Shown: in pieces, positions 1 through 7,571 of the stretch | How the letters are laid out: each line of letters starts with the position of its first letter | Position numbering within the stretch: the stretch's first letter is position 1 | NCBI GenBank assembly: GCA_035288405.1 | Contig: DATEAK010000206.1 | Span: forward strand, 1 to 7,571 | Reading direction: 5' to 3' | DNA length: 7,571 bases | Source of the DNA: JACPSX01 sp035288405 [NCBI: bacterium] | Lineage (GTDB): Bacteria > JACPSX01 | Position numbers and translations under genes: made by a program | Notes under the pieces: model-generated | Database searches by the model: none | The model's input: the letters and a program-made list of their open reading frames with translations, nothing else | What the model was told of the DNA's origin: nothing

Positions 1-1274
1 AAAAGGTGAAGGAGTACATGGTCTTCATGCTGTTCCTGGAGACCGGAATGCTGGGGGTGTTTGTCGCCACCGATCTCTTCCTGTTTTACGTGTTCTGGGA
101 ACTCATGCTGGTCCCCATGTATTTCCTCATCGGGATTTGGGGCGGGGCCAGGAGAATTTACGCTGCGGTGAAGTTCTTCCTGTACACGATGGTGGGCAGC
201 CTTCTCATGCTGGTGGCCATCCTGGTTCTCTATTTCCTCAACTACGAGGTCACCGGCAGGTACACCTTTGATTTGTGGGAACTCTATCAGCTGAATCTTC
301 CCCTGAACCTGCAGATGTGGCTTTTCCTCGCCTTTGCCCTGAGTTTTGCCATCAAGGTGCCCATGTTTCCCCTGCATACGTGGTTGCCTGATGCTCACGT
401 AGAGGCGCCCACGGCGGGCAGTGTGATCCTGGCCGGAGTCCTTCTCAAGATGGGGACCTACGGGTTTCTGCGCTTCGCTCTTCCCCTGTTCCCTGCCGCT
501 ACGATGGAGTTTGTCCCCTGGATCTCCTGGCTGGCCCTGATCGGGATCATTTACGGAGCGCTGATGGCCTTCGTGCAAAAAGACATCAAATCTCTGGTGG
601 CCTATTCCAGCGTCAGTCACCTGGGATTCGTGATGCTGGGAATTCTTGCCCTGAACGCCGAGGGGATTCAGGGAGGGATTCTCCAGATGGTGAACCACGG
701 ACTGTCGACGGGTGCCCTGTTCCTCATGGTGGGAATCCTCTACGAGCGCCGGCATACCCGCCTGATCGAGGACTTCGGCGGTCTCTCCTCCCGGATTCCC
801 GTGTTTGCCACCTTCTTCATGATCGTCACTCTTTCCTCCATCGGTCTGCCCGGTCTGAACGGATTCGTCGGAGAATTCCTCATTCTGGTGGGTACCTTCC
901 GATCGAACCCGCTCTACGGGATCATCGGTGCCATCGGGGTGATACTGGCCGCGGTCTACATGCTGTGGATGTTTCAGAAGGTCATGTTCGGGAAGGTCAC
1001 GAAGCCGGAGAACCAGAACCTGGCGGATATGACGGCTCGAGAAGTGATTACGTTGGTCCCATTGGTCGCATTTATTTTCTTTATTGGCGTGTTCCCGAAC
1101 GTCTTCTTGAGCAAAATGGAAACCACGGTCTCTCATTTGATCATCCACATCCAGAGAGGGCAGGAATTGCGATCTCGCGGTTCCGTGGGGCCTGAAGGAT
1201 CCGCTCCGCTCCTTTTTGACCTGCAGGATCGGACTCGGGTAAATGGCGCAGGACCCGGGGAGGATCATCCATGA
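1..1274 (+). CDS. nuoM: NADH-quinone oxidoreductase subunit M (5' partial)
   Basis: Antiporter-like, proton-translocating membrane subunit of complex I. The reading frame is already open at the left edge (first full codon at base 3), so the true start lies outside the window; about 90-110 N-terminal residues are missing judging from the family. Numbering from the GTG codon at base 6, the conserved Glu of the [16 protein letters not shown] motif is residue 32. The two conserved transmembrane lysines are K117 (in FAIKVP) and K148 (in LLKMGTYG), 31 residues apart as in E. coli NuoM K234/K265. The quinone-oxidoreductase signature [17 protein letters not shown] lies between them. Many hydrophobic helices follow, ending near residue 382. 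The last 39 residues are hydrophilic, rich in Gly, Arg and Pro, and look like nothing usual in NuoM. The stop TGA overlaps the nuoN start by 4 bp (ATGA), indicating translational coupling. Identity is very sure; only the tail is odd. Confidence 0.97.
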
Positions 1275-2731
1275 ACTTCGTCCTTCCGGAAATTGATCTT
1301 GCAGCCATCGCTCCTCAGCTCTGGCTCACGGCCACCGCCATCCTGGTCTTGATGGTTCAAGTCTTCTTTCCTCGGGTCGGCAGCCGGTTTTTGGGACTTC
1401 TCGGCATACTCGGCGCCCTCGCTTCTCTGGTGGCCACACTGGGCCTCTGGGGACAGCAGGCCGTCCTGTTCTCCGGAATGATCGTCCTGGACGCCTTCAG
1501 CCTCTTCTTCAACGTGGTCTTCCTGTTGGGCGCCATCCTTACGATACTGATCTCGATCGAGTATCTGGAGCGGGAGCAAATCGCACAGGGGGAATATTTC
1601 GCTCTCGTCCTTTTCGCTACCGTGGGGATGATGATCATGGCTTCCGGAGATGACCTGATTGCCATCTTCGTAGGTCTGGAAATTCTCTCCCTTTCCCTCT
1701 ACGTGCTGGCGGGATTCATGCGCCAGGTCCTGCGCTCCAATGAATCGTCTATGAAATATTTCTTGCTGGGCGCCTTCGCCACCGGGTTCTTCCTTTACGG
1801 AATCGCCCTTTTGTACGGGACCACCGGCAGCACAAACTTGAACCGGATCTTCTCGATGGTGGCCCAGCGAGGGGGCTTGGACGACATTCTGGTCCTGGGC
1901 GGGATGGGGCTTTTGCTGGTCGGATTCGGCTTCAAGGTGGCCTCGGTCCCCTTCCATATGTGGGCCCCGGATGTGTACGAGGGAGCTCCGACTCCGATCA
2001 CGGCATTCATGTCCACCGCCGCCAAGGCCGGCGCATTTGCGCCCTTCGTGCGTATCTTTCTCCATTCTTTAGCCGGGCTCTCCGCTTCCTGGTCGCCGCT
2101 TCTGGCCGGCATGGCGGTCTTGTCGATGATCGTGGGAACTCTGCTGGCCCTGGTCCAACGCCAGAATATCAAGAGGCTGCTGGCTTATTCCAGCATCGTG
2201 CACGTCGGCTATCTCTTGCTGGGACTGCTCTCGGGCGGCGCCGAAGGAGGCGCCAGCATCCTCTTTTACTTGCTGGCCTATACCTTCATGCAAGTGGGAG
2301 CTTTCGCCGTGGTGATCTACCTGGGGAACCGGGGCGAAGAAGATTTGTCGCTGGCCCACTTCTCGGGAGTGGCCGTTCGCCATCCGGTGGCAGCGCTGGC
2401 GTTCTCGGTTTTCTTACTGTCTCTGGCGGGGATTCCTCCCACGGCGGGCTTCGTGGGCAAGTTCTATATTTTCAGCGCCGCAGTTCGGACAGGGCATGTC
2501 GGCCTGGCGATCGTGGGTGTTCTTACCAGTGTGGTCTCGCTTTATTACTATCTGGGTGTCATCGTCTACATGTACATGCGTGATCCCATCGAACTTCCCG
2601 CCCGCCGCCCTTCGGTGGCCCTGGTCCTGGCGTTGGCCTTGGCTGCGGTCGGTACCGTGGAGATGGGGCTTTTCCCCGGCAATTTCTTGGATCTGGCCCA
2701 GCAATCGGTGGCTCGTCTGTTAGGTTCCTGA
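1271..2731 (+). CDS. nuoN: NADH-quinone oxidoreductase subunit N
   Basis: Third antiporter-like pump of the complex I membrane arm, next to NuoK in the assembled complex. The 486 residues are the normal family length and are nearly all hydrophobic helices. Key residues seen: E137 in the [16 protein letters not shown] motif, K222 in [21 protein letters not shown], and K252 in [10 protein letters not shown]; these match the conserved Glu and two Lys of the proton path. The [17 protein letters not shown] stretch distinguishes NuoN from NuoL and NuoM. The ATG at 1271 is preceded by GGGGAGGA (1257-1264) at a 6-nt spacing and overlaps the nuoM stop as ATGA. It is the last gene before a 259-bp gap with hairpins, so it probably ends its transcription unit. 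No frame damage is seen. Confidence 0.98.
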
Positions 2732-2735
2732 TCAG

Positions 2736-2766
2736 GGTCGGAGGAGAAAATCCGTCACCTCGGACC
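2736..2766 (+). terminator. Imperfect stem-loop after nuoN, possible transcript end
   Basis: The arms GGTCGGAGG (2736-2744) and CCTCGGACC (2758-2766) pair at 8 of 9 positions with one central G-G mismatch, around a 13-nt loop. It starts 4 bases after the nuoN stop codon. No U-run follows; instead CCTTC (2765-2769) can pair with GAAGG (2775-2779) in an overlapping second hairpin. It could therefore be a weak or factor-dependent terminator, or a 3'-end stabiliser, rather than a classical intrinsic terminator. Confidence 0.35.
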
Positions 2767-2786
2767 TTCATCCGGAAGGAAGCAGC

Positions 2787-2831
2787 GCGCGAATGAGGTT
2801 TGCGCATAGGTTACCTGCGAGACAACGCAGG
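2787..2831 (+). repeat. Two tandem hairpins downstream of nuoN
   Basis: The first hairpin pairs GCGCGAA (2787-2793) with TTTGCGC (2799-2805): 7 bp including one G-U, with a 5-nt loop. The second pairs CCTGCG (2814-2819) with CGCAGG (2826-2831): 6 perfect bp around loop AGACAA. They are 8 nt apart. Neither is followed by a T-run. Both lie about 95-140 bp upstream of the candidate nuoA promoter, so they belong to the nuoN 3' region or to DNA-level structure, not to the nuoA leader. Confidence 0.4.
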
Positions 2832-2924
2832 CCGCGAGAAAGCCCGTGAAGTGAAAGCGAAGAATGCGGCGACGATTCGTGCAGTGAAGTTATAAACTGT
2901 GGCGGCGGCAAAGGGGAAAAAGGG

Positions 2925-2953
2925 TTGCACCTCAGAACCTCCTGTGCTAGGGT
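2925..2953 (+). promoter_or_regulatory. Candidate sigma-70-type promoter for nuoA-L
   Basis: A -35-like TTGCAC (2925-2930) and a -10-like TAGGGT (2948-2953) are separated by exactly 17 nt, the optimal spacing. The -10 is preceded by TGC (2945-2947), an extended -10 element. Each hexamer matches the E. coli consensus at only 3 of 6 positions, but at the most conserved ones (TTG, and T-A with final T). Predicted transcription start is near 2960, giving a leader of about 30 nt. An A/G-rich stretch (2911-2924) lies just upstream. The position right before the first gene after a gap supports the call. Confidence 0.5.
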
Positions 2954-2966
2954 TTGCAGTCGATTT

Positions 2967-2980
2967 GGGAGGGGAAGGGG
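2967..2980 (+). promoter_or_regulatory. Purine-rich ribosome binding site of nuoA
   Basis: GGGAGGGG (2967-2974) and AAGGGG (2975-2980) sit 10-16 nt before the GTG at 2991. They support that GTG as the nuoA start, since no other start codon in frame gives a full N-terminal helix. Confidence 0.55.
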
Positions 2981-2990
2981 AAAGTAGATC

Positions 2991-3383
2991 GTGGAAGTAT
3001 TTTTCAGCGGCTATTCCGCTCTCAGTCCCTACATTCCGGTATTCCTTTTCATTCTAGTCGCCGTCGCCTTTGGCATCGTGACTCTACTCGTTGCCAAGCT
3101 CGTGCGACCCAACCGGCCCTACCCGGAGAAGCTTTCCCCTTACGAGTGCGGCGTCCCGCCGCTCATGGAAGCGCGCGAGCGTTTTTTCATCCGGTTTTAC
3201 ATCATTGCCATTCTTTTCGTCCTGTTTGACGTGGAGGCGGCGTTCCTCTACCCTTGGGCCGTACTCTACGGGAAGATCGGGCTCTACGGTTTTATTGAGA
3301 TGATGATCTTCATCGCCATCTTACTGGTGGGGTATGTTTATGCCTGGCGCAAGGGCGCGCTGGATTGGGTGAAGGAAGGCTAA
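2991..3383 (+). CDS. nuoA: NADH-quinone oxidoreductase subunit A
   Basis: Small membrane subunit (ND3 homologue) at the junction of the peripheral and membrane arms. The 130 residues are a normal length with three hydrophobic helices (about 13-37, 66-90 and 98-118). The long loop after the first helix carries KLSPYECG with Cys53, the conserved loop cysteine whose exposure reports the active/deactive state in mitochondrial ND3. The second helix carries FDVEAAFLYPWA (79-90) with the conserved acidic residues D80 and E82. It starts with GTG and opens a new transcription unit behind a candidate promoter. The next gene is nuoC after only 6 nt, where nuoB is normally found; there is no trace of nuoB. 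Identity is certain; the start is likely. Confidence 0.97.
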   Translation: MEVFFSGYSALSPYIPVFLFILVAVAFGIVTLLVAKLVRPNRPYPEKLSPYECGVPPLMEARERFFIRFYIIAILFVLFDVEAAFLYPWAVLYGKIGLYGFIEMMIFIAILLVGYVYAWRKGALDWVKEG

Positions 3384-3389
3384 AGGACC

Positions 3390-4076
3390 GTGGATGAGAA
3401 GGAGCGGGAGGAAAAAATCAAGGCCGCCCAGGACGCGGCGGCCAAGCGCGCTGCAGTTCCCAAACCTTCTCCGGAGGCAGCCCCCACCCTCGATGTCGAA
3501 GCAATCCCCGTTGTGCGCCGCTTGCGGGAAGCTTTCCCCGATGCGATCCGTGAGGTAACGGTCCCCGGAAAAATCCCGGACGAACTCACCTTGCTCATCT
3601 CTGCGGAAAAGGCCCTGTCTGTTTGCCGGTTTCTGAAAGAGGAACCCGAGTTTTCCTTCAATTACCTGGCCGATCTGACCGGAGTCCATTACCCGGGTCG
3701 GGAAGAGTGTCTGGAAGTCGTCTATCATCTCTTTTCCATCAAGACTCGACAACGTTTGCGGCTCAAGGTGCGGGTGCGGGAAGAGGAAGCCGTGGAGTCC
3801 GTGAGCTCCGTATGGCGTACGGCCAACTGGCATGAGCGCGAGGCCTATGATCTGGTGGGGATCCGGTTCCGTAATCATCCCGACTTAAGGCGCATCCTGC
3901 TTCCGGAGGAGTGGGAAGGGCACCCCCTGCGCAGGGAATACCCGGTGGAGGGGAGAGGGGAAGGGTTGCGATACGTAGCCCACGTCCTGCGGGATCCCGA
4001 AAAGGCTTTCCGGGAATTTGAGGAGCGCCAGGCAAGCCAGAAGTCCCCGGAAGTTTCCCAGGAGGGGGGGGAGTAG
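3390..4076 (+). CDS. nuoC: NADH-quinone oxidoreductase subunit C
   Basis: Hydrophilic 30-kDa-type subunit of the peripheral arm that packs against NuoD near the quinone site. The 228 residues are slightly long. The core shows FNYLADLTGVHYPG (90-103) and the family signature WHEREAYDLVGIRF (147-160), then HPDLRRILLPEEWEGHPLR (163-181) followed by REYP. Residues 1-33 form a Lys/Glu/Ala-rich then Ala/Pro-rich extension outside the conserved domain. The last 20 residues are also charged and dispensable-looking. The start is GTG, 6 nt after nuoA, with GAAGGAAGG (3371-3379) upstream. The end contains a run of eight G (4064-4071), and the TAG stop is followed by one codon and then nuoD in the same frame. 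It is not fused to NuoD as in E. coli. Confidence 0.96.
   Translation: MDEKEREEKIKAAQDAAAKRAAVPKPSPEAAPTLDVEAIPVVRRLREAFPDAIREVTVPGKIPDELTLLISAEKALSVCRFLKEEPEFSFNYLADLTGVHYPGREECLEVVYHLFSIKTRQRLRLKVRVREEEAVESVSSVWRTANWHEREAYDLVGIRFRNHPDLRRILLPEEWEGHPLRREYPVEGRGEGLRYVAHVLRDPEKAFREFEERQASQKSPEVSQEGGE
4061..4073 (+). promoter_or_regulatory. Ribosome binding site of nuoD inside the nuoC end
   Basis: GGAGGGGGGGGAG lies inside the last codons of nuoC and ends 6 nt before the GTG at 4080, so nuoD has its own strong purine-rich site. It includes a homopolymer of eight G (4064-4071). It supports separate translation of nuoD rather than a NuoCD fusion. Confidence 0.6.
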
Positions 4077-4079
4077 GAC

Positions 4080-5180
4080 GTGCTGGAAACCAAAGAACTC
4101 ATCCTCAACATGGGACCCCAGCACCCGAGTACCCACGGGGTATTGCGTTTGGTCTTGAAGCTTGAGGGAGAAACCATCGTCGGGACCGACGTGGTCATCG
4201 GCTATCTGCACCGCGGCTCGGAGAAGATCGCCGAAAATATTCCTTACTTCGAGTTTGTCCCCTATACGGACCGGCTGGACTATACGGCGGCCCTGTCCAG
4301 CAACTTGGGTTACGTGATGGCCGTGGAAAAACTCTCCAATATCCGGCCGCCCGAGCGGGCGGAATACATCCGGGTGATCCTCACCGAGTTTCAACGCATT
4401 GCGGCTCACCTGGTCTGGCTCGGTACTCACGCCATGGACCTGGGGGCCATGACGGTCTTCCTTTATTGCTTCCGGGAGCGGGAGACGATCCTCGACTTCT
4501 TCGAGATGATCACGGGCGCTCGCCTGACCATTAATTTTTTCCGCATCGGCGGCGTGCCGGCCGATCTGCCGCCCCAGTTCTTCGCGCGCGCCTGGGAATT
4601 CTTGGAAACCTTTCCCGATCGCATCAAGGAGTATGAGGCACTGCTTACCCGCAATAAGATCTGGCTGAAGCGTACCAAGGGCGTTGCGGTCATCTCCGCG
4701 GAAGACGCCATTGACCTGGGATTGACGGGGCCGAGCTTGCGGGGCAGCGGAGTTTCCTTTGACATCAGGCGGGCCGAACCTTATTCCGTATACGACCGTC
4801 TCCAGTTCGATATTCCTATCGGGGAGAAGGGAGACGTTTTTGACCGTTACATGGTTCGGGTCGAAGAGATGCGCCAAAGCATCCGGATCATCCGGCAGGG
4901 TCTTGAGCAGATTCCCGAAGGGGATCTCATAAGCCGTGTGCCCCGCAAGCTCAAGCCTCCGGCGGGAGCAGAGGTTTATGTCCGGATTGAGGCTCCCAAA
5001 GGAGAACTGGGCTTCTACATCGTAAGCGACGGCGGCGAGAAACCCTACCGTCTCAAGATCCGGGGTCCTTCTTTCGTCAACTTGCAGTCCCTGCCCCTCA
5101 TGGTCCAAGGGGGGCTGGTGGCCGACGTGGTGGCCGCCATCGGCAGCATCGACGTCGTCCTGGGTGAGGTGGACCGTTGA
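4080..5180 (+). CDS. nuoD: NADH-quinone oxidoreductase subunit D, short form
   Basis: The 49-kDa-type subunit that forms most of the quinone-binding pocket in the peripheral arm. The quinone ligands are present: His19 in GPQHPSTHG and Tyr68 in DRLDY, 49 residues apart exactly as in the bovine H59/Y108 pair. Other family motifs are HRGSEK (44-49), RGSGVSFDIRRAEPY (221-235), EEMRQSIRII (262-271), IEAPKGELGFYIVSDGG (303-319) and the terminal GEVDR. It has no CxxC motifs, which excludes an energy-converting hydrogenase large subunit. At 366 aa it is shorter than the usual 390-400. The gap maps to residues 281-294, where about 24 residues including a helix with a LIHHF-like motif are missing in frame. 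The start is GTG, 3 nt after the nuoC stop. nuoH follows after 38 nt. Confidence 0.96.
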   Translation: MLETKELILNMGPQHPSTHGVLRLVLKLEGETIVGTDVVIGYLHRGSEKIAENIPYFEFVPYTDRLDYTAALSSNLGYVMAVEKLSNIRPPERAEYIRVILTEFQRIAAHLVWLGTHAMDLGAMTVFLYCFRERETILDFFEMITGARLTINFFRIGGVPADLPPQFFARAWEFLETFPDRIKEYEALLTRNKIWLKRTKGVAVISAEDAIDLGLTGPSLRGSGVSFDIRRAEPYSVYDRLQFDIPIGEKGDVFDRYMVRVEEMRQSIRIIRQGLEQIPEGDLISRVPRKLKPPAGAEVYVRIEAPKGELGFYIVSDGGEKPYRLKIRGPSFVNLQSLPLMVQGGLVADVVAAIGSIDVVLGEVDR

Positions 5181-5182
5181 AA

Positions 5183-5203
5183 AGCGATCAGCGGTCAGCT
5201 TTC
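5183..5203 (+). repeat. Three tandem AGCNNTC heptamers between nuoD and nuoH
   Basis: AGCGATC (5183-5189), AGCGGTC (5190-5196) and AGCTTTC (5197-5203) are three head-to-tail 7-bp units that share AGC..TC. They fill most of the 38-nt gap and end 15 nt before the nuoH start. AAAGC (5181-5185) can also pair with GCTTT (5198-5202) as a 5-bp stem. Heptamer runs of this kind are, from memory, dispersed in some bacterial genomes, but copy number elsewhere cannot be seen here. Confidence 0.6.
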
Positions 5204-5205
5204 TT

Positions 5206-5211
5206 AAGAGG
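5206..5211 (+). promoter_or_regulatory. Ribosome binding site of nuoH
   Basis: AAGAGG lies 7 nt before the GTG at 5219 and supports that codon as the nuoH start, placing it just beyond the heptamer repeats. Confidence 0.5.
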
Positions 5212-5218
5212 TTGAATC

Positions 5219-6181
5219 GTGCCGACCGTTCTACTTGAGATCATCGTCGTTCTTGTGAAGATCGCCGTGGTTTTCGGGGCCGTCGCTCTGGTGGTGGCCT
5301 ACCTGACCTATCTGGAGCGTAAGGTGATCGGTCACATGCAGCACCGCATGGGACCCATGCGCGTGGGCTGGCACGGTCTCTTGCAACCTATTGCGGACGG
5401 TCTCAAGCTTTTTACCAAGGAAGACATTATTCCCAGCCAGGCGGATCGCTGGGTGTTTTTTCTCGCTCCCGTCGTTTCCCTGGTGCCGGCCTTTATTGCG
5501 TACGCGGTGATTCCATTTGACCGGAACTTTTACATCACTCATCTGAACATCGGCGTGCTCTACATTCTGGCCGTTTCTTCCCTGGGGGTCTACGGGATCG
5601 TGATGGCCGGCTGGGCTTCTAACAGCAAGTACGCGATCCTGGGGAGCTTCCGTTCAGCCGCTCAGATGTTCAGCTATGAAATCTTCCTGGGTTTCTCTCT
5701 CATCGGCCCACTGATGATTGCCGGTTCCCTGGATCTCGTCAAGATCGTCGACGCCCAATCGAAGGTCTGGTTCATCGTCTACCAGCCGGTGGCCTTTCTT
5801 CTGTTCCTCGTTGCCGCCACTGCGGAGACAAACCGGGTCCCCTTTGATCTCCCCGAAGCGGAGACTGAGTTGGTGGCGGGCTTTCACACGGAGTACAGCG
5901 GCATGAAGTTTGCCTTCTTCTTCATGGCCGAGTACGCGAATATGGTGATCGTAGGGGCCATGGCCAGCGTCCTTTTCCTGGGAGGCTGGAGCGGCCCTGT
6001 TCTTCCCGGGGTGATTTGGTTTTTCCTCAAGGTCATGGCGTTCATCTTTTTGTTTATCTGGTTGCGGGCCACGTTGCCGCGCCTGCGCTACGACCAACTC
6101 ATGTACATGGGTTGGAAGGTCATGTTCCCGATCGCGATCCTGAACATCGTAGGGACGGGCTTGGTGATCTACCTGCTCTAG
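5219..6181 (+). CDS. nuoH: NADH-quinone oxidoreductase subunit H
   Basis: Membrane subunit (ND1 homologue) that closes the quinone channel and connects it to the proton path. The 320 residues are a normal length with about eight hydrophobic helices. Diagnostic motifs: [16 protein letters not shown] (31-46), [15 protein letters not shown] (55-69), the acidic loop [20 protein letters not shown] (202-221), [14 protein letters not shown] (226-239) and [15 protein letters not shown] (281-295). The acidic loop residues thought to carry the coupling signal are all present. It starts at GTG, the fourth GTG-initiated gene in a row. Its TAG stop overlaps the nuoJ ribosome binding site. nuoI, which usually follows nuoH, is absent here. 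Confidence 0.98.
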
Positions 6182-6184
6182 GAG
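6180..6184 (+). promoter_or_regulatory. Ribosome binding site deciding the nuoJ start
   Basis: AGGAG overlaps the nuoH stop codon. It lies 9 nt before the ATG at 6194 but only 3 nt before the in-frame GTG at 6188. The ATG is therefore the better start for nuoJ. Confidence 0.55.
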
Positions 6185-6193
6185 ACAGTGGAT

Positions 6194-6700
6194 ATGGAGC
6201 CGTTCTTCTTTTTCCTGTTTGCGGCCGGAGCTGTGATCTCGGCTCTCCTGGTGATCAGCCGCCGCAACATCATGCACTGCGCTTTGTTTTTGGTTCTGAC
6301 ATTTTTCTTCGTGGCTGCGATCTTTGTCTTGCTCAATGCCGAGTTCCTGGCCGCGGTCCAGGTTCTGGTGTACGCGGGCGCCATCATGGTGCTGTTCACC
6401 TTTGTGATCTTCCTGGTTCATATTCCCCGCACCGAGAAGATCCGCCGGACGTTTGGGCAGAAAAACCTGGCGCTGGCGCTTGGCGTGTTCCTGGGCCTGG
6501 AGGTGGCCTACATTGTGTACGGGGCGATCTCTGCCCCCGCATCTCCCGCTGCCGCACCGGTAGTGCAAGGGGGAAACACGGAGAGCTTCGGAGTGGCCCT
6601 GTTTACCCGGTTTCTTTTCCCTTTTGAAATTGTCTCTGTTCTTCTTCTGGCGGCCATGATCGGGGCGATTGTGCTGGCCAAAAAGGAGATCGACCGATGA
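6194..6700 (+). CDS. nuoJ: NADH-quinone oxidoreductase subunit J
   Basis: Membrane subunit (ND6 homologue) next to NuoK and NuoA. With the ATG at 6194 it has 168 residues; an in-frame GTG at 6188 would add two residues but is too near the ribosome binding site. Five hydrophobic segments are visible. The most conserved one is [21 protein letters not shown] (47-67), which matches the third helix with its pi-bulge and Tyr60, a switch point in the coupling mechanism. A less conserved Ala/Pro/Gly linker (113-128) precedes the last helix, which contains [21 protein letters not shown] (142-162). The stop overlaps the nuoK start as ATGA. It directly follows nuoH with no nuoI between them. Confidence 0.95.
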
Positions 6701-7008
6701 GCGGCGCGGTGCCTCTCTCCTATTACCTGATCTTAGGAGCCCTGCTGTTCATCATTGGAGCCGTCGGGGTCCTGACCCGGCGTAACGCTCTGGTGATCCT
6801 TATGTCCATCGAGCTTATGTTGAACGCGGTCAACATCACCCTGGTGGCCTTCTCCCGCTTTCAGGGCAACTTCACCGGGCAGATCTTTTCCTTATTCATT
6901 ATCGCCGTGGCGGCGGCCGAGGCGGCTGTGGGGCTGGCCATCATCATCGTCTTGTTCAACAACCGGGAAACCCTCAATGTCGATGAGATTAACCTGATGA
7001 AGTGGTAG
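6697..7008 (+). CDS. nuoK: NADH-quinone oxidoreductase subunit K
   Basis: Small membrane subunit (ND4L homologue) that forms part of the E-channel. The 103 residues, three hydrophobic helices and two buried glutamates are all typical: E39 in [11 protein letters not shown] and E75 in [11 protein letters not shown], 36 residues apart as in E. coli E36/E72. The C-terminal VDEINLMKW is the usual ending. The ATG overlaps the nuoJ stop by 4 bp, and AAGGAG (6683-6688) lies 8 nt upstream, so translation is probably coupled. nuoL follows after 17 nt. Confidence 0.98.
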
Positions 7009-7025
7009 AGGCCAAGGGAGCGCTC

Positions 7026-7571
7026 ATGTCCCCGTTCATTGTTACGCTGATTCCGCTGCTGCCCGCATTGGCTGTGCTGTTGAACGGCCTGTTGGGGTTC
7101 CGTGTCTTCAAGGAGAAGGCCCACTGGCTCGGGGTAGGGTCCGCGGTTCTCTCCTTCCTGCTGGCCCTGCAGGTGATCTGGCAGGTGGCCTTCGAGGGAG
7201 TCCGGGCGGAGATAATTCTCTACGAATGGGTCGTCGCCGGCAATCTTCACGTCAACATCGGATTCCTCATCGATCCCCTGACCGCCGTCATGCTGTTCGT
7301 GGTCACGGGGGTCGGCCTCCTGGTGCACATTTACTCGGCCGGCTACATGCACGGAGACCCGGGTTATCCCCGATTTTTCACCTACATGAATCTGTTCATG
7401 GTCTCCATGCTCCTGCTGATCATGGCAAACAACTACCTGCTGCTCTTTGTGGGATGGGAAGGAGTCGGGCTGTGCTCCTATCTCCTGATCGGATTCTGGT
7501 ACGAGAAAAAGTCGGCCTCCGATGCCGGTAAAAAGGCGTTCATCGTGAACCGGATCGGGGACGCGGGTTTT
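7026..7571 (+). CDS. nuoL: NADH-quinone oxidoreductase subunit L (3' partial)
   Basis: Distal antiporter-like pump of complex I. 182 residues are present before the window ends; the family is usually above 600, so roughly the last 70% is missing. Visible hallmarks are GFLIDPLTAVML (79-90), the loop YMHGDPGYPRFFTYMNLFM (107-125), and FVGWEGVGLCSYLLIGFWYE (141-160) with the conserved E145. The NuoL-specific AGKKAFIVNRIGDAGF closes the window and contains D179. These match E. coli E144 and D178. The ATG at 7026 is preceded by AAGGGAG (7014-7020) at a 5-nt spacing. The protein reads without interruption to the right edge, and the operon probably continues. Confidence 0.97.
   Translation, partial: MSPFIVTLIPLLPALAVLLNGLLGFRVFKEKAHWLGVGSAVLSFLLALQVIWQVAFEGVRAEIILYEWVVAGNLHVNIGFLIDPLTAVMLFVVTGVGLLVHIYSAGYMHGDPGYPRFFTYMNLFMVSMLLLIMANNYLLLFVGWEGVGLCSYLLIGFWYEKKSASDAGKKAFIVNRIGDAGF

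Follow-up and report, generated by a model that had tools for sequence, protein, structure and literature searches.

The stretch of DNA analyzed here (the window; 7,571 bases, contig DATEAK010000206.1 of the bacterium JACPSX01 sp035288405) carries nuoA-C-D-H-J-K-L, a cluster of complex I genes from which nuoB and nuoI are missing. Genes were named with NCBIfam profile models and all lie on the plus strand, in the order nuoM (cut), nuoN, a gap of 259 bases, and nuoA-C-D-H-J-K-L (nuoL cut), as follows.

6 to 1274, plus strand: nuoM, truncated at its 5' end by the window boundary (TIGR01972, 548 bits)
1271 to 2731, plus strand: nuoN (TIGR01770, 449.5 bits, above the cut-off)
2732 to 2990, plus strand: gap of 259 bases between the upstream unit and nuoA
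2991 to 3383, plus strand: nuoA, GTG start (NF005839, 129 bits, below the cut-off of 163)
3384 to 3389: A-C junction, expected site of nuoB, 6 nucleotides (nt), remnant-free; the same in the closest relative, locus L001
3390 to 4076, plus strand: nuoC, GTG start (TIGR01961, 155 bits, above the cut-off)
4080 to 5180, plus strand: nuoD, short form of 366 residues (NF008974, 530.9 bits, cut-off 522)
5219 to 6181, plus strand: nuoH (NF004741, 389 bits, cut-off 305)
6182 to 6193: H-J junction, expected site of nuoI, 6 or 12 nt depending on the start codon; 12 nt in L001
6188 to 6700, plus strand: nuoJ (NF005164, 134 bits, below the cut-off of 154)
6697 to 7008, plus strand: nuoK (NF004322, 130 bits, cut-off 128)
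7026 to 7571, plus strand: nuoL, truncated at its 3' end by the window boundary (TIGR01974, 229 bits for the fragment)

The gene order given by the models agrees with the first-pass annotation, which had described a unit without nuoB and nuoI, with clean junctions of 6 nt (A-C) and 12 nt (H-J). The first distance is confirmed (NuoA stop at 3383, NuoC GTG start at 3390), and the second depends on the start codon of nuoJ: counted from the NuoH stop at 6181, it is 12 nt with the ATG at 6194 and 6 nt with the GTG at 6188. A tblastn search with nine NuoB, NuoI, NuoE, NuoF, and NuoG query proteins detected no credible nuoB or nuoI remnant in the window. The best matches (a NuoE query at 2680 to 2465, E value of 1.7e-4, and NuoB2 at 1310 to 1230, E value of 0.003) were both short, antisense, and located around nuoN and nuoM, and the only matches touching the H-J region were one of 10 residues to NuoI (E value of 4.8) and an antisense one of 17 residues to NuoG (E value of 1.2). 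By simple arithmetic, the chance that a random pair lost from ABCDHIJKLMN is nuoB plus nuoI is 1/55, and the same pair is also missing in a second group, the Acidobacteriota. No sigma-70-like promoter or terminator was found in the nuoN-nuoA gap (2732 to 2990); the sole terminator-like site lies inside nuoN (2664 to 2678).

NuoD contains the motifs HPSTHG (at residue 15) and DRLDY (at residue 64), which we take to be its quinone-pocket segments, and its translation has a single cysteine and thus no NiFe-binding CxxC pair, let alone the two by which a hydrogenase subunit would be recognized. Since it scores above the NF008974 cut-off, keeps both segments, and has only one cysteine, the window protein is, judged by its sequence, a NuoD of the quinone type rather than a hydrogenase subunit. 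The core membrane subunits A, H, J, and K and part of L are present in the window, with a partial nuoM following in L001, where the contig ends before any nuoN of this unit. The unit without NuoB and NuoI is a variant layout that may still be able to act as complex I. From the layout of the relative, nuoM and nuoN at 6 to 2731 appear to belong to the end of a separate upstream complex I unit.

L001, the nearest of 592 candidate stretches, lies on contig JACPSX010000046.1 (C21) of a Candidatus Tectomicrobia metagenome-assembled genome (MAG; G001). NuoD is 92 to 93% identical between the two, and since the DNA is 83 to 88% identical, L001 is, by this measure, from another species than the window. 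JACPSX01 is entered as a GTDB phylum beside Tectomicrobia in an excerpt of a published listing (PMC10839748), from which G001 is probably the MAG that gave the phylum its name. The genes of L001 run from the end of nuoJ through K, L, M, and N and then, in tandem, through A, C, D, H, J, K, L, and M (truncated where the contig stops), and show the window's junctions of 6 nt (A-C) and 12 nt (H-J) and neither nuoB nor nuoI inside them, so that gene order in a relative, to which the first-pass annotation had pointed, is the same.

The other complex I of G001 is itself split. Contig C32 carries A (partial), C, E, F, H, and J and stops within J; by gene logic it would lead into C21. Contig C152 (L091, 491 to 7178) holds, in one run, genes for a MidA-type methyltransferase (PF02636) and a CCG-domain GlcF-like protein followed by nuoB-D-I-G. 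The first complex I of this fragmented MAG, the contigs of which carry runs of N, thus consists of A-C-E-F-H-J-K-L-M-N plus B-D-I-G, and the window-type unit adds another membrane arm in tandem, one that lacks nuoB and nuoI. A B-D-I run similar to that of C152 is also found in genome G060 (L189), and the genes of L047 were called G, B, D, I, A, C.

G001 contains two nuoB genes by PF01058, one on C152 and one on contig C144, which lends partial support, from the genome of a relative, to the proposal that NuoB and NuoI are encoded elsewhere; a simple loss of the redox genes is not supported. The NuoI model TIGR01971 matches C152 best (141 bits, above the cut-off), then C144 (104.6 bits), then weaker Fe-S proteins, and the C144 NuoI has both [4Fe-4S] motifs intact. 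The C144 genes share a strand and run in the order rubrerythrin-like gene, nuoI, nuoB, nuoE-like gene, nuoF-like gene (550 residues), and fdhA, with short gaps from nuoI to fdhA. FdhA reaches 734.3 bits with the formate dehydrogenase alpha model TIGR01591 (cut-off 666.25) and 154 bits with the NuoG model TIGR01973 (cut-off 470), and it holds an RLCHAP segment that presumably has a role in formate dehydrogenase. A run of 20 N (L092, 16240 to 16259) cuts fdhA into two frames. The NuoF-like protein matches the flavin mononucleotide (FMN)-binding domain PF01512, and NuoF matches in G001 occur only on C32 and C144. We also considered C144 as a hydrogenase locus, which is ruled out: NuoD matches in G001 are confined to C21 (window-type) and C152, and the last C144 gene encodes a formate dehydrogenase. 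C144 therefore has electron input, NuoB, and NuoI but no NuoD, and the window-type unit supplies NuoD and the membrane arm and lacks NuoB, NuoI, and input. Among 39 other stretches, C152, C32, the window, and C21 are the four closest to C144 in tetranucleotide composition, which gives no sign of a foreign origin of C144 in G001. The nuoI-nuoB-formate dehydrogenase operon is known from this one MAG, the phylum searches around G001 and G060 having covered one genome each.

Which of the two NuoB/NuoI pairs fits the unit was addressed with a combined NuoB plus NuoI tree of 35 rows (an additional NuoB of L193 and one L128 NuoB frame out of two were omitted; the G060 row joins its lone NuoB to the NuoI of its cluster). 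The C152 pair falls inside a group with 98/97 support, and C144 falls outside it, grouping with G060 (85/81) and with L193/L195 (97/89); a sister relationship of C144 and C152 is rejected by the approximately unbiased (AU) test (P of 0.019). The P values of all AU tests given here are optimistic, since the tests were framed after the single-gene trees were known. The C144 pair thus appears to fall with the 11-subunit type, as does the window unit, and the C152 copy (B-D-I-G) matches the complex I that has its remaining genes upstream of that unit.

In a tree of NuoA, -C, -D, -H, -J, -K, and -L (1,965 columns; 28 rows, 27 loci plus the window with its NuoL fragment), the nearest row to the window is G060 (96/95), and the two join L002, L031, and L192 (100/99), all three of which have complete ABCDHI clusters. 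The G060 cluster (L188, contig C27, 8350 to 19475) reads nuoA-C-D-H-I-J-K-L-M-N, with nuoI kept and nuoB missing, and its lone nuoB, with a full CC motif, lies on another contig (C23, L190). That nuoI stays in the cluster and nuoB is on another contig suggests, at the level of gene order, a stepwise loss with nuoB leaving first and G060 as an intermediate.

The C144 nuoB gene contains an in-frame TGA (L092, 13201 to 13203) at the codon for the second cysteine of the CC motif, a residue that is cysteine in 8/8 other aligned NuoB proteins and which we take to be a ligand of cluster N2. G001 encodes SelB (370.6 bits, cut-off 242), and the hairpin 3' of the TGA, which resembles a selenocysteine insertion sequence (SECIS), ranks 2nd among 93 NuoB genes by hairpin energy and 14th of 93 by overall folding energy; it agrees with the constraints on bacterial SECIS elements given in an excerpt of a selenoprotein review (PMC13188914), in which no NuoB is listed among selenoproteins. 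G001 yielded no certain tRNA-Sec: among the three matches at or above the gathering score, ARAGORN called one tRNA-Trp and one tRNA-Ser, and the third was left unassessed. A clear tRNA-Sec is present in G060. In the literature searched, covered partly by excerpts, we found no description of a selenocysteine-containing NuoB. The C144 NuoB is thus a candidate selenoprotein, known from one contig, the rival reading being a base error.

The same two genes are missing from clusters of the order nuoACDHJKLMN at 11 Acidobacteriota loci (L003 to L010, L019, L021, and L024), so the view of the layout as a one-off is not supported. These loci come from the best 80 of the 592 candidates by NuoD similarity to the window, and their frequencies are no estimate for any phylum. 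L028 also lacks nuoB and nuoI, but its contig ends in nuoH and it was excluded from the eleven. An adjacent nuoB-nuoI pair lies elsewhere in 9/11 of these genomes; of the other two, G004 has nuoB only inside a 14-subunit cluster, and G012 has no PF01058 match. A gene for an FdxA-like ferredoxin is located at most 700 nt upstream of the detached nuoB in 8/9 cases, L120 being the exception. These ferredoxin-nuoB-nuoI loci are the following.

L118, L121, L122, L123, L124, L126, L127, and L128

No NuoF match was found in 6/11 of the genomes with the B/I-less cluster, and the FdxA-like ferredoxin is a candidate electron donor of the Acidobacteriota 11-subunit complex I. The AU test rejects a clade that unites the window and the eleven loci (P of 1.3e-7, or 2.5e-6 with G060 added), and the two layouts therefore most likely arose separately, with the groups framed after the first tree. 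As a side observation, the blastocatellial locus L014 (9345 to 19714) reads C-D-H-I-J-K-L-M-N, and neither nuoA nor nuoB was found before nuoC on a contig that continues upstream.

We propose that the window unit encodes NuoC, NuoD, and the membrane arm of a complex I of the 11-subunit type, and that NuoB and NuoI, which would contribute cluster N2 and the two [4Fe-4S] clusters that pass electrons to it, are produced by another operon and join the complex in trans. For the relative, this operon would be nuoI-nuoB-nuoE-like-nuoF-like-fdhA, which places the Fe-S wire together with a formate dehydrogenase. Formate-derived electrons would travel through the NuoE/F-like proteins and the Fe-S clusters of FdhA to NuoI, NuoB, and quinone at NuoD, with proton pumping; NADH might also enter, perhaps via the NuoF-like protein with its FMN-binding domain. 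By the same logic, ferredoxin would be the source in the Acidobacteriota. The different electron-input module that the first-pass annotation had considered thus gains partial support from a phylogenetically fitting NuoB/NuoI copy in a formate dehydrogenase operon, the pairing being our inference. That NuoB and NuoI are encoded in trans is very likely, and a pair of the C144 type is probably the partner of the unit; for both together we estimate a probability of roughly 60%. Formate dehydrogenase as the physiological donor is a tentative assignment, close to an even bet, and the direction of electron flow is likewise proposed. More tentatively still, complex I may have been split more than once between redox and nonredox parts, with NuoI-NuoB traveling as a cassette together with an electron source, here yielding a formate:quinone proton pump, possibly with a selenocysteine ligand of N2.

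Several observations weigh against this explanation. The evidence on NuoB and NuoI comes from G001 and none of it from the window's own genome, which would, by extension from the relative, hold a C144-like operon with products that assemble with the window unit. The C144 NuoI stays below the model cut-off (104.6 versus 113.05 bits), as do the NuoE-like and NuoF-like proteins with their NCBIfam models, the TGA at a cluster-ligand codon could mean that nuoB is broken, and C144 could be mis-binned in a fragmented MAG, though its composition fits. L193/L195 do not adjoin the window in the seven-protein tree, so the trees disagree in part. Neither a clade of C144 with the Acidobacteriota pairs (AU P of 0.077) nor one of C144 with G060 (AU P of 0.2) is rejected, and the single-gene NuoB tree, built on a chosen part of the loci, has many unresolved forks. 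The Acidobacteriota set was picked by similarity to the window NuoD, and only a minority of that phylum may have the B/I-less layout, since most of its species are reported to possess a complete complex I in an excerpted survey (PMC12361115). FdsABG-type formate dehydrogenases are described in an excerpt as soluble NAD enzymes that work without NuoB and NuoI (PMC11238625).

It is possible, though rather unlikely, that trans-encoded NuoB and NuoI belong to the unit while its donor is ferredoxin, NADH, or another partner and the neighboring formate dehydrogenase is a separate, soluble enzyme. The Acidobacteriota pairs adjoin a ferredoxin gene, and an excerpted account gives several donor proposals for 11-subunit enzymes and treats the question as open (PMC11238625); this reading has to face the position of the C144 nuoI and nuoB directly before the nuoE-like, nuoF-like, and fdhA genes on one strand and with short gaps. 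It is improbable that both membrane arms share the NuoB and NuoI of the B-D-I-G operon, with the C144 genes serving only a soluble formate dehydrogenase or decaying: B-D-I-G is intact in G001 and the C144 nuoB has its TGA, but B-D-I-G has its own NuoD, the C152 pair stands across the 98/97 split from the 11-subunit type, and the Acidobacteriota genomes G003 and G005 keep a separate nuoB-nuoI pair beside a 14-subunit cluster. The absence of both genes from the unit itself would agree with an ion channel or uncoupled membrane complex that works without NuoB and NuoI, a very improbable reading, since the presumed quinone-pocket segments HPSTHG and DRLDY of NuoD would be pointless without N2 and NuoB is found elsewhere in 11/12 Acidobacteriota genomes searched. 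Assembly loss of nuoB and nuoI from the contig, conceivable for metagenome-derived sequence with N runs in the relative's contigs, is hardly credible because the same two clean junctions, with frames kept, are present in L001 and thus in two species, and the layout recurs at 11 Acidobacteriota loci.

Complex I enzymes of 11 subunits are already known, and an excerpt reports that a search for their common donor was unsuccessful (PMC11238625). The window unit shares with them the core membrane and quinone-module subunits, a cluster without nuoEFG, and an unknown donor; it differs from their eleven genes in one operon in having nuoB and nuoI outside, in the relative together with formate dehydrogenase. 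In Nitrospina gracilis, the second complex I, NUO-2, likewise has scattered genes (nuoACHIJKLMN, nuoEGD, and lone nuoB2 and nuoF2), but NuoI stays in its membrane-arm cluster, and the excerpt does not describe a formate dehydrogenase beside nuoB or nuoI (PMC3578206). The Acidobacteriota nuoACDHJKLMN clusters with their ferredoxin-nuoB-nuoI loci lack the same two genes and encode them together elsewhere with an electron carrier; they differ in forming a separate cluster clade, in the order B-I versus I-B in C144, and in having ferredoxin instead of formate dehydrogenase. C144 resembles the cytoplasmic NAD-dependent formate dehydrogenases of the FdsABG type in its row of nuoE-like, nuoF-like, and alpha genes but has nuoI and nuoB in front, and we know of no report that FdsABG-type enzymes use these two. 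Formate hydrogenlyase and the group 4 hydrogenases connect a formate dehydrogenase via NuoB/NuoI homologues to a membrane arm; unlike theirs, the window NuoD, with one cysteine, cannot bind NiFe, and the acceptor should be quinone. In the literature searched, partly as excerpts, we found no description of nuoI-nuoB paired with a donor operon or of a NuoB/NuoI split of this sort, and dispersed complex I genes in general are known, as an excerpt documents (PMC3578206). We conclude that this is a real and unusual split of complex I, which has been taken apart in its genes along a functional seam in two groups kept apart by the trees, and that nuoB and nuoI beside ferredoxin or formate dehydrogenase genes offer testable donors for the 11-subunit enzymes.

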